Translations under genes and position numbers: made by a program | The notes under the pieces: generated by a model | The model's input: the letters and a program-made list of their open reading frames with translations, nothing else | Database searches by the model: none | What the model was told of the DNA's origin: nothing | Origin: Thermomicrobium sp. 4228-Ro | GTDB taxonomy: Bacteria > Chloroflexota > Chloroflexia > Thermomicrobiales > Thermomicrobiaceae | Direction: 5' to 3' | Length of the DNA stretch: 64,000 nucleotides | Assembly: GCF_026241205.1 (NCBI RefSeq) | Contig: NZ_JAPFQM010000006.1 | Coordinates: 62,001-126,000 of the forward strand | Part shown: positions 39,070-50,767 of the stretch, in pieces | Layout: every line of letters starts with the position of its first letter | Numbering within the stretch: position 1 is the first letter of the stretch

Positions 39070-39276
39070 CTACCCACGCGACGAGTCTGAGCGCGAGGCA
39101 CCTCCAGTTCATGGACATCCGCCCGCATCTCGGCAAACGAGCCTCTCGCCGACGGCATGCTTCCCGGCCGTTGCCGCGACGCACTGTTTCCCCGTAGCAT
39201 CCGAACGAGTTCGGAACTGGCCGCGTCGGCCCGCATGCCCGGCTTCGAAACAGCGGAGGCGGAGAGGAGCACATCG

Positions 39277-40248
39277 ATGGCACAGCCACCCGAGGTCACT
39301 GGAACGGTCGTCGTCCTGGCCGGCGGCGTCGGAGGTGCCAAGCTCGCTCACGGTTTCGCCCAGCTCGGCCTCGGTCATCGACTCGCGATCATCGTCAACA
39401 CAGCTGACGATTTCGAACTCTACGGCCTCACGATCTCCCCTGATCTCGACACCGTCATGTACACCCTCGCCGGCATCGCGAACCCAGCGACCGGCTGGGG
39501 CATTCTCGGCGATACCGCCAACACGCTGGCAATGCTCGGCCGCTACGGCCGACCGACCTGGTTCTGGCTCGGCGATCGCGATCTCGCCACGCACATCCTG
39601 CGAACCGAGCGACTGCACCAGGGAGCTCGCCTCACCGAAGTCATCAGCGAGCTGGCCGGTGCACTGGGTGTCGCCGCTCGCATCCTGCCCATGTGCGACG
39701 AACCGGTCCGCACGATCGTCCACACGCCCGTGGGTGACCTCCCCTTCCAGGAATATTTCGTCCGGCGACGCCAGCAGGATCCGGTACTCGGCGTGCGCTT
39801 CGATGGAATCGAGCACGCACGTCCAACCCCGGAGGTCGAGCGAGCGCTCGAGGAAGCAGAGATCGTCGTCCTCGCCCCATCCAACCCGATCGTCAGTATC
39901 GGTCCGCTGCTTGCACTTCCTGGCTTCCGCGAGCGCTTGCGCCACGCCACTGTTCCGATCGTCGCCGTCAGCCCGATCGTCGGCGGGCGGGCATTGAAAG
40001 GGCCAGCGGACCGGATGCTCGCTTCGCTCGGGCACGAGGTGTCACCACTCGGCGTGGCTCGTCTCTACCAGGACTTTCTCGATGGCCTCGTCATCGACGT
40101 GCAGGATACAGCGCTCGCCGACGCGCTCCGGAACATGGGGATCGAACCCTACGTCACCGATGCCGTCATGCACGATGAGTCCGACCGGGCGCGTCTGGCA
40201 CGCGAGACGCTCGACTTCGCTCGTCGGCTGCACGGAGTGACGCGGTGA
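39277..40248 (+). CDS. cofD: 2-phospho-L-lactate transferase (F420 biosynthesis)
   Basis: A 323-residue CofD/FbiA. It joins the activated phospholactate (or phosphoenolpyruvate) moiety to the deazaflavin Fo to make (dehydro)F420-0. The N-terminal [20 protein letters not shown] is the family signature; [20 protein letters not shown], then [11 protein letters not shown] and [19 protein letters not shown] follow. The ATG at 39277 has GAGAGGAG in front. It is the first gene of a tight F420 operon; cofC begins inside its stop codon. Confidence 0.95.
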
Positions 40249-40856
40249 TCCGCACGCTCGCCGTCATTCCCGTCCAGCGGCTCGATACCGCCAAATCGCG
40301 ACTCGCCCCTGTACTCGACCCGGCGTCGCGCCGTTCGCTCGTGCTCCAGCTCGCCGAGCGGACCGTCCGGCTCCTCCGGAGCGTGTCCGGCATCGACGAA
40401 GTCGCTCTGGTCACTCCCGACCCGCACCTGGCCGTCGCGGCCCGAGCCTGGGGAGCCCTCCCACTCGAGCAGACTGAGCCGGGGCTCGAGCGAGCGATCG
40501 TGCTCGCCCAGCGGTATGCCGTTGCCGAAGACTTCGGTGCCTTGCTCGTCGTCCTCGGTGACTTGCCCCTGCTGGAGATGACGACGCTCCGCACAGCGCT
40601 CGCACTGCTCGAGCCGCACGGTGTTGTCCTGGCGCCGGACCGCCACGGCACCGGTACCAACCTCCTCGCCCTGTCCCCTCCCGACCTTCCGATCCCGGCA
40701 TTCGGGCCCGAGAGTCGCGTGCGCCATCGTCTTGCAGCGCGTCGCGCTCGGTGTACGCTTCGAGAGGTGTGGGCGCTGCCGCTCGCGCTGGATCTCGATA
40801 CTCCGGAAGATCTCGCACGGCTGCGCAGCGTCCGCGAGAGAGAGGGGGAGACGTGA
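40245..40856 (+). CDS. cofC: 2-phospho-L-lactate / phosphoenolpyruvate guanylyltransferase (F420 biosynthesis)
   Basis: A 203-residue nucleotidyltransferase of the CofC/FbiD family. It makes the GTP-activated three-carbon unit that CofD transfers. Typical stretches are [33 protein letters not shown] and [19 protein letters not shown], then [10 protein letters not shown]. The start is GTG at 40245, overlapping the cofD stop (GTGA). In several bacteria the substrate is PEP rather than phospholactate, which then needs a dehydro-F420 reductase (see the nitroreductase at 41806). Confidence 0.93.
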
Positions 40857-45338: not shown

Positions 45339-47222
45339 GTGCAGGTGACGAGCGAGCGCGTGGTTCACGTTCTCGCGCCACGACTCGAGCGGTGGCGCTA
45401 CCGCTGGTTCGGTCGCCTGGTCGTCAGCGACGGCGCGGGGGAACTGGCTCTGCCGATGACCGGGACAGTAGCTCAGTGGCTCCGACCTGGCGAGCGACTC
45501 GTCCTCGCGCTCGCTGATGCAGCGAACGATCCACCCAACTTCCAGAACTATGCACTGTGGAAGCTGACCGATGACGAGTTGCTACCGGTCTGGCCGCTGT
45601 GGCAAGAAGAAGCGACCTTCGAACACCGGTCGCCGCTCACCGAGACCGTCCTGGCTACCTATCGCCTCCGCTTTCGGGAGGCAGCTCGCGAAACCGACTT
45701 CCTCGCGATCGTCGAACTCGAGCAATCGCACTACGCGAGCGAACACGAGTATGTCGCTCGCTGGACGTGCCCCGTGGACGAAACGACGCTCGATGCCAAC
45801 ACTCGTCCACTCTGCCCCCGTTGCCACCGTCCCATGCGGTTCACCGACCTCCTCGGCTCCACCCGGGCGAGCCGCTTCCTGGTCGCTGAACTGGTCGATC
45901 GCGAACCGTACGAGCCGACGATCGTTGGGTATGTGCGCGTCGACCCACCCCTCCCGATCATGCACCGGCGTCTACCGGACGGCAGCCTCGTCCGGCACAT
46001 CCGCCGACAGGTCTTTCCTTCCGACTGGTTCGAGCCGACCTACTGGCCCGAACACCACTACCGCGAGCTGCGCGAGCAGGAGTCGGACGCCGATCCTGAC
46101 GAACTCTGGGCCGAAGCGGAAGAGCGCGCTCTTGCCGAATGCGACACTCGGGCTGCACGTATCGCACGCGTCGTCGTCCATTCCGACTACCGCGGTGAAG
46201 GGCTCGGCCACACGCTCGTCAGCGCTGCCCTGCGCTGGATTCTCGACCGGCGCATTCCCGAGATGCGCCGCCCCAAAGCGATCGTCGAGACGGTCGCGAT
46301 GATGGCGCGCTACAACCCGTTCTTCGAACGGGCTGGCTTCCGTTACCTTTGGGATACCGCCTCGGGCCGCCCCGTCCTGTTCCATGGTCTGGTCCCGGAA
46401 GCCGATGCCCTGATCGAGCAGTTCATCGCGACCGATTCGGTCGCTCAGCTGCACCAGGGACGTTTGTACCGCCCAGCTCTTCAACCTCCCGAGCCACTGG
46501 CCGGACCCATCCGCTTGCGTCATGTCCGCAAGGCCTACCGGCGCTCGCTCGATCTGGACCGCTTGGATCCGGAGCTCCGCGCCATCCTGCGGGCTTTCGG
46601 CGTCGAGCGACGTGTGGTCGAGACGGTCGTGCTCCGCCATCTCGATCTCGATGTCGAGCCAGGTGAGATCGTGGCGCTCATCGGCGCCTCCGGTGCCGGC
46701 AAAACGACTTTGCTCCGGCTCGTGTGGGGTGCCACGAGCGAGCAGCGCGGGCGGCGCTACCGCCCCGACTCTGGGCACATCGAGGTCCCCGCTAACGCAG
46801 TCGCTGCAGCCCTCTTACCGGGCGAGATCGAGCCCAAGTGGGGGCGAGAACCGCTGCTCCAGCGCATCGTCGCTGCGGTCGAGGACCCTGTCAGCGCGAT
46901 GGAACTCCTCAACGCCGTCGGGTTGAGCGACGCCGTGCTCTGGCGCGCGACTCCGCAAGAGCTGTCGACCGGGCAACGCGAGCGAGCGCGCCTCGCACTC
47001 CTCCTCGCTGAACGACCGAACCTCGTGCTGCTCGACGAGTTCGCTGCCCACCTCGATCCCGCGCTCGCCAGCCGAGTCGCCCGCAAGATCGCGATGCTCC
47101 TGCGACGGCTCCGTATCACCGCGCTCATCGCGACGCATCGCCCGGAAGTCATCCGAGCGCTCGAGCCGGACCGCGTCCTCGTCGTCGGCTATGGCGGCAT
47201 CGTCCAGGCTGAAGGAGCCTAG
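45339..47222 (+). CDS. GNAT acetyltransferase fused to a soluble ABC ATPase (COG2401-like)
   Basis: A 627-residue fusion. Residues 1-140 are an unassigned beta-rich region, followed by three Cys (144, 159, 162; CPRCHRP) that may form an incomplete zinc ribbon. A GNAT domain spans about 175-350, with the acetyl-CoA loop RGEGLG (285-290) and ARYNPFFERAGFRYL. From 425 comes an ABC ATPase: Walker A GASGAGKTT (449-457), signature LSTGQRERARLAL (542-554), Walker B LVLLDE (562-567) and IATHRPEV. There are no membrane helices, so it is not a transporter. Function is unknown; ABC-fused acetyltransferases occur mainly in archaea. GTG 45339 or 45345 starts it. Confidence 0.87.
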   Translation: MQVTSERVVHVLAPRLERWRYRWFGRLVVSDGAGELALPMTGTVAQWLRPGERLVLALADAANDPPNFQNYALWKLTDDELLPVWPLWQEEATFEHRSPLTETVLATYRLRFREAARETDFLAIVELEQSHYASEHEYVARWTCPVDETTLDANTRPLCPRCHRPMRFTDLLGSTRASRFLVAELVDREPYEPTIVGYVRVDPPLPIMHRRLPDGSLVRHIRRQVFPSDWFEPTYWPEHHYRELREQESDADPDELWAEAEERALAECDTRAARIARVVVHSDYRGEGLGHTLVSAALRWILDRRIPEMRRPKAIVETVAMMARYNPFFERAGFRYLWDTASGRPVLFHGLVPEADALIEQFIATDSVAQLHQGRLYRPALQPPEPLAGPIRLRHVRKAYRRSLDLDRLDPELRAILRAFGVERRVVETVVLRHLDLDVEPGEIVALIGASGAGKTTLLRLVWGATSEQRGRRYRPDSGHIEVPANAVAAALLPGEIEPKWGREPLLQRIVAAVEDPVSAMELLNAVGLSDAVLWRATPQELSTGQRERARLALLLAERPNLVLLDEFAAHLDPALASRVARKIAMLLRRLRITALIATHRPEVIRALEPDRVLVVGYGGIVQAEGA

Positions 47223-47626
47223 CGTTCACGTCGGCGTACTTGGCGGCGGACGACCCAGATGCGCGGTCCACCGGCTCGTTCGACTTCGTACGGCTCAGCG
47301 AACTCTTCCGCTTCCTCGAGCTCCCAGGCCCAGAGTGGCCGTTCCTGCGCATATGCCCGCAGGAACTCCTCGGGAGCGAGGTGCCTCTCGATCTCCTCGA
47401 GAAGCTCTTCTACCGAGAACGGCCCGAGGACCCGAACCAACCGTACCGCCCCGATCAAGCCACGGGGACTCACGATCCCGATACGGCCGCGGATACGCGT
47501 CGGATACCGCCGGATCTCCCAGGTCTTCCGCCCTTGCACGATATACGATGCCCACGGCTCGCGGACAACGAGTGAGCGTTCCGGGATAACCTCTTCCCAC
47601 TCGTCGCGACGTCGTTCGTCGTTCAT
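47219..47626 (-). CDS. ASCH-domain protein (PUA-like, putative RNA-binding)
   Basis: A 135-residue protein with the ASCH pattern: SLVVREPWASYIVQGRKTWE, IRRYPTRIRGRIGIVS, and GAVRLVRVLGPFSVEELLEE, where the Gly-Lys-Thr-x-Glu and Arg of the putative nucleotide/RNA site are present. It ends in a basic VRRQVRRRER tail. Its stop codon overlaps the stop of the convergent GNAT-ABC gene (47219-47222). The ATG at 47626 has only AAGG close by. A TACACT on the minus strand (plus 47666-47671) lies 40 nt upstream as a likely -10. Confidence 0.82.
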   Translation of the reverse strand: MNDERRRDEWEEVIPERSLVVREPWASYIVQGRKTWEIRRYPTRIRGRIGIVSPRGLIGAVRLVRVLGPFSVEELLEEIERHLAPEEFLRAYAQERPLWAWELEEAEEFAEPYEVERAGGPRIWVVRRQVRRRER

Positions 47627-49239: not shown

Positions 49240-50767
49240 GCTCCGCTCAGCAGAACCACGATTCGGTCAGGCGCGGCGGAGCCGGTCGCTTGCGCCGCTG
49301 TCGGGGTGGTTCGGCTGGCGGCATCTTACCGGCTGCTTCGTAGGCGAGCGCCCGGACAGCGGCGAAGGTGCAGTACGGATCCCACTGCTCGCGCGTCGCC
49401 TGCTCGGCCAGCGCTGCGACGGCCCGCTGGAGCGCGTCCATGCGCGGATCGGGGTGTCGCCAGGTATAGGTGAAATTCGCCTCGTCCAGCTCACCGAGAT
49501 ACGGCTGGATGGCCGGTTCCTCCAGCAGCGCCGATCCAGGCGGAATCAACAGCCGAATGGAAAGGTGAACCGGATCGACATGTTCGATCAGCTCCTCCTC
49601 CTCGATGAAGGCAAGGAGCTCGAGATAATCGGCGAGTGTCGTCCAGGGGGTGAACGGAAGGAGCGAGGGGCGGAGCGCGATCCCCGCCTCGTCGCAGATG
49701 CGGAGCGCCTCGACCACGTCAGCTCGCGTGTGCCCCTTCCGGATCGCGCGCAACACGCGCTCGCTCAGCAGCTCGACAGCCGAGACGATGAAGACGCAGC
49801 CGAGCCGCTGGAACTCCGGGATAAGGTCACGATGCGCAACGATGTGCTCGATCCGCGTCGTGAAGTCGAAGGTGACATCCGGGAACTCGTCGTGTAGGGC
49901 ACGGCAGATCCGCAGCGCGTGCGTCGGCCCATTGAGGAAATCGGGGTCACCGAACGTGATGTGCCGCACTCCCTGTGCCACCTGCTGCCGAATATCGGCC
50001 AGCACGACCTGCCGAGGAATCGCGAAGAATCTCCCTCGGTACACCGGCACGACCGGACAATGCGCACAGGTGTGATGACACCCCCTGGTCGTCTCCGTGT
50101 ACCCCGCCGGTACGACCCGTCCGTTCATCACGAGATGCGCATAGTGTCGCGGGGGTGGCAACGTCTCCCGGGCTGGCACAGGAAACGAGACGCGCACGAG
50201 TGCTGGTTGGGCATCCCGCTGCCGCGTGACGACACCCGGCACCGTGACCGGCTCCCCTCGCTCGAGCGCCTGCACCAGCCCCAGGAGCGGCAACTCGATC
50301 TCTCCGCCGATAACGCTATCGGCGAGTTCGCGCAGAAGGTAGTCTCGGTTCAACCACGCGTAGAGTCCGTAGTAACACAGGTGAACGCCTGGGTTGACCT
50401 CCCGGATTCGCCGGCCCAGAGCCACACCGATCCGGAGCGCGGTGTGCATCGGCACCGAAATCGCCACCAACGCTGCCCCGGCGAGCATCGTAGCGTCCGG
50501 CTCCTGAACCGCAGCGTCGATGGCTATGGGCCGATAGCCGGCCTCCCGCAGGTAAGCCAACGGCAACGCCAGGCTCAGCGGCTGGTGCCCGAGCTCGTAG
50601 CACGAGAGCAGGACGATCGCTCCAGTACGGCGGAGATCGCGAGCCGTTGCCTGCTCAGGAGATCGACGGTGATCGACGAGCGGCACGACGCACCTCGTTT
50701 CGCTGTCAAGCGTAACACGCACCGGCCCATCGCCACTCGTCCGAATATGCACCATCCGCACGCTCAT
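49205..50767 (-). CDS. B12-binding-like radical SAM protein with CUAEP tail, probable selenoprotein
   Basis: The frame reads 506 codons to TGA (49249-49247). It then continues GCG GAG CCG and ten more codons to TGA at 49207-49205, giving ...TESWFC-U-AEP... This matches the CUAEP/CCAEP-tail radical SAM family, in which UGA encodes selenocysteine. Residues 48-170 look like a B12-binding Rossmann domain without the DxHxxG His. The radical SAM cluster is Cys230-x3-Cys234-x2-Cys237 (CHHTCAHC), followed by ITFGDPDFLNGP, a typical barrel and a helical C-domain. Substrate unknown. If UGA is read as stop, the protein ends at Cys506. The ATG at 50767 has a weak ribosome binding site. Confidence 0.82.

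Follow-up and report, generated by a model that had tools for sequence, protein, structure and literature searches.

A GNAT–ABC ATPase fusion paired with an ASCH protein: a possible nucleic-acid acylation system of thermophiles

The analysed window, a stretch of 64,000 nucleotides from a 907,128-bp contig of a 3.07 Mb genome, contains a gene for a 627-aa protein in which a GNAT acetyltransferase domain is fused to an ABC ATPase, and, convergent with it, a gene for a protein of the ASCH family. The gene order around the two genes matches that of the 917,738-bp megaplasmid of Thermomicrobium roseum, so the window (1-64000, corresponding to 62001-126000 of the contig) probably lies on a megaplasmid. 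The T. roseum orthologue of the fusion gene occurs in the same gene order and is annotated ‘GNAT family N-acetyltransferase’. Elsewhere in the window, a radical SAM protein is encoded at 49247-50767 (-), its T. roseum orthologue being annotated as a CUAEP/CCAEP-tail radical SAM protein, and F420 side-chain genes are located at 39157-40856 (+), with T. roseum orthologues annotated as cofD and cofC in tandem. Conservation was assessed in 81 loci, namely the best 80 of 113 relative-encoding stretches from one genome-contig scan and the window's own locus. The features are as follows.

45339-47222, + strand: GNAT–ABC ATPase fusion gene, 627 aa, GTG start (Pfam; T. roseum orthologue)
45339-45653, + strand: N-terminal all-beta domain, residues 1-105 (AF2 model; no Pfam or PDB identity)
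45654-46484, + strand: GNAT domain with an inserted Cys-rich segment, residues 106-382 (PF13508, PF00583; alignment)
45762-45842, + strand: degenerate zinc-ribbon-like segment, residues 142-168, with C144, C159 and C162 (sequence pattern)
46191-46208, + strand: acetyl-CoA loop R285-xx-G288-x-G290, present in 81 of 81 loci (best 80 of 113 plus the window)
46296-46340, + strand: family motif AMMARYNPFFERAGF, residues 320-334; phage GNATs have SSMSKYNPFAMKAGF (alignments)
46497-47219, + strand: ABC ATPase cassette, residues 387-627 (PF00005; alignment with MlaF 6xgz_A)
46683-46709, + strand: Walker A, GASGAGKTT, residues 449-457 (alignment)
46962-46976, + strand: ABC signature LSTGQ, residues 542-546, in 81 of 81 loci (best 80 of 113 plus the window)
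47022-47039, + strand: Walker B, residues 562-567, with D566 and E567 in 81 of 81 loci (best 80 of 113 plus the window)
47219-47222, no strand: CTAG palindrome supplying the TAG stop to both genes (sequence)
47219-47626, - strand: ASCH (PUA-like) protein of the TTHA0113 type, 135 aa (Pfam, PDB match; T. roseum orthologue annotated ASCH)
47510-47533, - strand: ASCH motif GxKxxExR, residues 32-39, invariant in 20 of 20 aligned ASCH proteins

In the fusion protein, an all-beta domain at the N-terminus is followed by the GNAT domain, into which a Cys-rich segment is inserted, and by a complete ABC cassette. In Pfam, it matched ABC_tran (PF00005) with 68 bits (cut-off 25), which assigns it to the ABC ATPases, as well as Acetyltransf_7 (PF13508) with 29.3 bits (cut-off 27) and Acetyltransf_1 (PF00583) with 28.4 bits (cut-off 20.7); these curated profiles, together with an acetyl-CoA loop of the form R/Q-xx-G-x-G/A, place it in the GNAT superfamily. 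The first-pass annotation of GNAT and ABC domains with the acetyl-CoA loop, Walker A, LSTGQ, Walker B and H-loop, the last represented by H600, is confirmed by these profiles and motifs. The complete Pfam list of 21 matches up to E 1 contains no membrane domain, and no permease was found recurring alongside the gene, which argues against an ABC transporter.

The AF2 model of the protein is confident (mean pLDDT 91.4, pTM 0.86), and its ABC cassette aligns with MlaF 6xgz_A over 201 residues (VIA-align Z 23.2, rmsd 2.1). Searches with the whole model by Foldseek and VIA-align gave matches to the ABC cassette and none for the N-terminal domain or GNAT folds. By both sequence and Foldseek, the best PDB match of the ABC half was 8s7v_K, a chain labelled OpuCA in an entry concerning the A2 component of the methyl-coenzyme M reductase activation complex. 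For the N-terminal domain, the PDB profile search gave nothing better than E 0.65, and no Pfam match was obtained for the eight such domains scanned, apart from sub-threshold noise in two of them. Its predicted elements follow the order of three strands, a short helix and further strands, and by this order the domain may resemble an OB fold.

Many GNATs act on protein amines, and the domain could accordingly modify a ribosomal or chromatin protein, with ASCH tethering the enzyme to RNA or DNA. One weak match in the PDB profile search, to ribosomal-protein-alanine acetyltransferase (E 0.16), would agree with such a role. However, all PDB matches of the GNAT part are weak, the best being streptothricin acetyltransferase (E 0.0082), and an invariant stretch at about residues 178-230 lies outside most of them and therefore does not appear to be a feature of described GNATs. 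Acetylation of protein is considered improbable.

Homologues of the fusion were found in 50 archaeal and 31 bacterial loci of the 81 (best 80 of 113 plus the window), so that the earlier description of the family as largely archaeal holds loosely. According to record titles, the carriers include Thermomicrobia, Thermoflexus, Bipolaricaulota/Acetothermia, Anaerolineales, Thermus, Thermococcus, Desulfurococcales, Archaeoglobi, Methanophagales, DPANN and Asgard groups; these names suggest that the carriers are thermophilic. The gene is widespread in Thermococcaceae (42 of 61 genomes), and its bacterial spread is patchy (6 of 41 relatives and 6 of 400 Chloroflexota). No relative was detected in a viral contig collection searched with the protein and with the alignment.

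The 81-row alignment shows little or no variation at the residues of Walker A, LSTGQ, Walker B and the acetyl-CoA loop, and the GNAT half is approximately as conserved as the ABC half. The H-loop position is occupied by His in 64 and by Asn in 17 of the 81 homologues (best 80 of 113 plus the window). Conservation of the catalytic residues and of both halves suggests that transferase and ATPase are both active, as far as can be judged from the alignment. The Cys-rich segment had been noted as possibly zinc-binding, which is borne out in part only. A four-ligand C/H pattern is present in 55 of the 81 homologues (best 80 of 113 plus the window), with three Cys in 18, two in 7 and one or none in 1 of the remaining ones; the window protein itself retains three.

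The ASCH gene, 47219-47626 (-), encodes 135 aa, and an upstream ATG could lengthen it to 47719. The protein is assigned to the ASCH superfamily by a PF04266 match of 35.4 bits (cut-off 21.2) and by the motif GxKxxExR, named as in the available text of PMC6803910. It matches the PDB entry for TTHA0113 over nearly the full length (E 4.8e-33), a protein for which the same text describes a conserved cavity. Another member, ZmASCH, binds and cleaves ssRNA, as given in the accessible part of PMC5615036.

The convergence noted at first reading, with a shared stop, was reproduced exactly: the TAG stops of both genes are contained in one CTAG at 47219-47222. The distance between the genes in related convergent loci ranges from -87 to +393 bp. 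Since the exact overlap varies, it represents ordinary gene packing, and a regulatory function of the stop-codon overlap was rejected. The conserved feature is the pairing of the two genes.

A catalytic function of ASCH was also considered. In the available part of PMC6972931, YqfB of E. coli is described as an ASCH amidohydrolase of N4-acetylcytidine (ac4C) with the triad Lys21-Thr24-Glu74 and a further requirement for Arg26. In a corresponding cycle, ASCH as the hydrolase would oppose acetylation of a free nucleoside, nucleotide or polyamine by the GNAT domain. However, all 20 aligned ASCH proteins have Glu in place of the proposed Thr nucleophile, for which reason a YqfB-like deacetylase role was rejected, and the cycle leaves the ABC cassette without a role; this reading is decidedly improbable.

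A phmmer search with the window ASCH protein revealed a relative in 42 of the 81 loci (best 80 of 113 plus the window) at E 3.6e-12 or better, and an iterated profile raised the number to 46. The added loci L055, L064, L068 and L072 encode another ASCH-like type; in the two scanned, L068 matched PF04266 barely above the cut-off, and L055 matched DUF3850 only, below the cut-off. In 15 of the 81 loci (best 80 of 113 plus the window), ASCH is the C-terminal domain of the GNAT–ABC protein itself, and in the other ASCH-containing loci the gene is convergent downstream (17), upstream on the same strand (7) or upstream and divergent (7). The 14 fused rows of a 78-row tree form one clade (support 100), and ASCH adjacency is scattered over separate clades, with 6 label changes. 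The structure predicted for a fused protein, m2493f9259add, has a mean pLDDT of 88.6 and a pTM of 0.77. No ASCH gene was found in the flank searched in 35 of the 81 loci, several flanks being shorter than 1 kb on one side.

The 754 neighbouring ORFs include a single family, ASCH, that extends beyond 4 of 15 lineage groups, and it is located within 393 bp. The next recurring neighbour, found in 4 of 15 groups at 1.4-3.5 kb, is a helicase, which we read as Lhr-like from its sequence; generic ABC genes also occur in 4 groups. Other archaeal neighbours are mixed and include thiamine genes, Maf, Ham1, AGOG, a helicase and transporters. Nucleotide-hygiene and repair genes are present beside the archaeal fusion genes at L028:4240-9674 and L036:4949-8928, with an AGOG glycosylase and Maf at one of these loci and Ham1 and an MJ1316 RNA-end domain at the other.

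The two genes also occur together when unlinked. In samples of Chloroflexota, Thermococcaceae and Thermaceae, ASCH of the TTHA0113 type was found in 70 of 70 genomes with the fusion gene versus 3 of 441 without it. GNAT and ASCH profiles, both applied at E 1e-20 to 400 Chloroflexota genomes, each matched 6 genomes, identical for the two profiles, and left the 394 others without a match; the two genes are 73 and 79 kb apart in two of the six, G325 and G392, and lie within one open frame in G208. In 61 genomes of the family Thermococcaceae, the fusion gene was found in 42, and ASCH in the same 42, including genomes such as G090 in which the genes are unlinked, and additionally in G095 and G105, which are genomes of only 1.2-1.3 Mb. 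In 50 genomes of the family Thermaceae, the fusion gene was found in 22, and ASCH in these 22 and in G551, where it is located near the contig start. The unlinked ASCH gene of Thermococcus overlaps the start of a DUF1614 gene by a few bases (L116:1869-2567, L117:1872-2570 and L091:800-1498).

Since the genomes within each group are related, these counts are not phylogenetically independent, and the case for a partnership is made by its recurrence in separate groups, by the fused forms and by the variety of gene arrangements. The refuting outcome named at first reading, homologues that never lie near ASCH genes, was not observed: homologues adjoin ASCH genes across many lineages and orientations or are fused to them, and unlinked copies co-occur. 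The two proteins very likely work together. Neighbouring genes often converge, and the stop overlap varies among loci, so that two unrelated genes might merely converge in the window; the fusion in 15 loci, the four arrangements and the co-occurrence in 70 of 70 genomes refute such a chance neighbourhood, the likelihood of which is next to nil.

ASCH is not obligatory in all groups. In the class to which Desulfurococcales belong (that of G005, the genome of locus L028), 56 of the 197 genomes searched carry the fusion gene, and ASCH of the TTHA0113 type was found in none of the 197 at E 1e-8. Other ASCH proteins exceeded the cut-off in 10 of 13 archaeal genomes searched, with no link to the fusion gene seen there. 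Accordingly, in this class the GNAT–ABC protein works alone or with a different partner.

A split form of the protein is present in phages. The GNAT half of the window protein matched phrog_886, and 30 records of phrog_886 members were found in a phage collection with the Cyrano protein as the query. The carriers include SSU5-like phages of Escherichia, Salmonella and Klebsiella and phages of Rhizobium, Pseudomonas and Stenotrophomonas; one phage relative is annotated as ‘MK0520 protein, ABC-type ATPase fused to a predicted acetyltransferase domain’. In hhalign, the phage GNAT aligned with the family GNAT with a probability of 95.3% (E 2e-8) over the acetyl-CoA loop and the motif ARYNPF..AGF / SKYNPF..AGF, and six unrelated ORFs with a GNAT-like loop pattern, used as a control, gave probabilities below 1%. 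The phage GNAT profile matched 75 of the 81 family members (best 80 of 113 plus the window; best E 9e-8) and no PDB chain better than E 0.75. A profile of six phage ABC proteins recovered 81 of 81 family members at 55.6-93.8 bits versus 29.3 bits for the best other ABC protein in the set; the gap is smaller in the PDB, where two-cassette proteins reached 67.3 bits and single cassettes 49.5.

In six of seven phage regions, ParB-like and ABC genes are annotated upstream of the GNAT gene, whereas the seventh region (L151) has unnamed genes; a terminase is annotated downstream in five of the seven. The usual order is helicase, ParB-like genes, ABC, GNAT, a small gene, a DNA-binding gene and terminase. 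In the Rhizobium phages L150, L152 and L154, a DUF2829 gene is inserted between ABC and GNAT; DUF2829 proteins are presumably the Tad2 anti-Thoeris proteins. Because the phage pair is specifically related to the cellular fusion and set among ParB-like and terminase genes, ABC and GNAT represent an old unit tied to nucleic-acid genes.

This phage setting bears on the possibility that the target is DNA rather than RNA, the pair acetylating a DNA base for self marking or genome maintenance, as the phage pair may do, with ASCH reading the target or the modified base. The patchy bacterial spread and the megaplasmid copy in T. roseum look like those of accessory genes, and ASCH is termed a modified-DNA-binding domain in the available text of PMC10853773. 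However, restriction genes and other defence genes do not recur in the neighbourhood of the cellular genes, PADLOC matches are limited to the generic ATPase part (best mad3, 8.4e-26), and presence in 42 of 61 Thermococcaceae is unlike that of a sporadic defence system. Acetylation of DNA rather than RNA is rather unlikely, and the candidate role as a defence system was rejected.

Taken as two parts of one enzyme system, the GNAT–ABC protein and ASCH would acylate, most likely acetylate, nucleic acid in thermophiles; we give this reading about even weight, and the placing of a chemical tag of some kind on RNA or DNA is probable. Nucleic acid is proposed as the target because two separate associations point to it, namely ASCH in cells and ParB-like and terminase genes in phages. 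We infer that the RNA or DNA target is bound by the ASCH domain, perhaps jointly with the N-terminal beta domain; on binding ATP, two ABC cassettes would pair, by which the nucleic acid would be clamped or opened; the GNAT domain would then move an acetyl group from acetyl-CoA onto a base. ASCH would thus be the targeting subunit of an ATP-gated acetyltransferase. The modification of RNA or the ribosome suggested in the first-pass annotation is a candidate function. RNA is slightly favoured over DNA, the partner being PUA-like and the family being spread through hyperthermophilic archaea; the phage version is located among DNA genes, which makes DNA a nearly equally plausible target.

In T. 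kodakarensis, ac4C is reportedly lost on deletion of Nat10, which would weigh against ac4C as the product of the GNAT–ABC protein; none of the present results supports that product. A broader reading, which we advance tentatively, is that of a second, independent ATP-driven nucleic-acid acetyltransferase, with an ABC clamp in place of a helicase and a PUA-like reader for targeting, of which phages would use a split form on their DNA and which could make an orphan acetylated nucleoside of thermophiles. N6-acetyladenosine could be an attractive candidate product; it occurs in Methanopyrus tRNA, and its biosynthesis is unknown according to the accessible parts of PMC6313347 and PMC7694415.

The partnership with ASCH, the forms fused to ASCH, the co-occurrence and the phage split form were not met in the available text of the openly licensed literature, and an earlier remark in specialist work is possible; papers naming ASCH, an ABC ATPase and GNAT together concern, in the same text, Dnd and BREX systems. 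With a named partner, an orphan COG of hyperthermophilic archaea and thermophilic bacteria becomes a testable two-component system, for which a partner structure (2dp9) and naturally fused versions for expression are at hand. If nucleic acid is acylated, the system would represent a modification enzyme driven by an ABC ATPase, distinct from TmcA/NAT10 and with a branch in phages, and would be a candidate maker of acetylated nucleosides that have no assigned enzyme.

Among known systems, the family probably corresponds to the orphan COG2401, a name without function; its domain pair is the same, and the label given at first reading was right in kind, the architecture being shared and a phage relative being named as MK0520-like. 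COG2401 presumably bears the symbol MK0520, in agreement with the phage annotation, and to our knowledge the ASCH partner and the fusion are not part of its description; COG2401 was not mentioned in the openly licensed literature searched. Both halves of the phage ABC and GNAT pair are specifically related to the domains of the fusion, but the phage pair is encoded by two genes, lacks the N-terminal beta domain and the Cys-rich insert, and was not seen with ASCH. TmcA/NAT10 (COG1444) combines GNAT with an ATPase and acetylates RNA cytidine with acetyl-CoA. It is an analogy in the way of working, its ATPase being helicase-like and that of the present protein ABC-type, and its Pfam families were not found among the 21 matches of the GNAT–ABC protein up to E 1.

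YqfB shares the ASCH fold and the motif Lys and Arg with the window ASCH protein, but at the same spacing Lys21, Thr24 and Arg26 of YqfB correspond to Lys34, Glu37 and Arg39 of the window family, which is thus not of the YqfB type. TTHA0113 of T. thermophilus (2dp9, 1wk2) is an uncharacterised ASCH structure and a direct homologue of the window protein; in the openly licensed literature it was found in PMC6803910 only, without a link to an acetyltransferase in the text available. In the available part of PMC7641849, no ABC ATPase is named for the (PIN)-GNAT-EVE operons, which differ also in being linked to defence or prophage; these operons likewise pair GNAT with PUA-like domains, including ASCH, and are predicted to act on nucleic acid or aminoacyl-tRNA.
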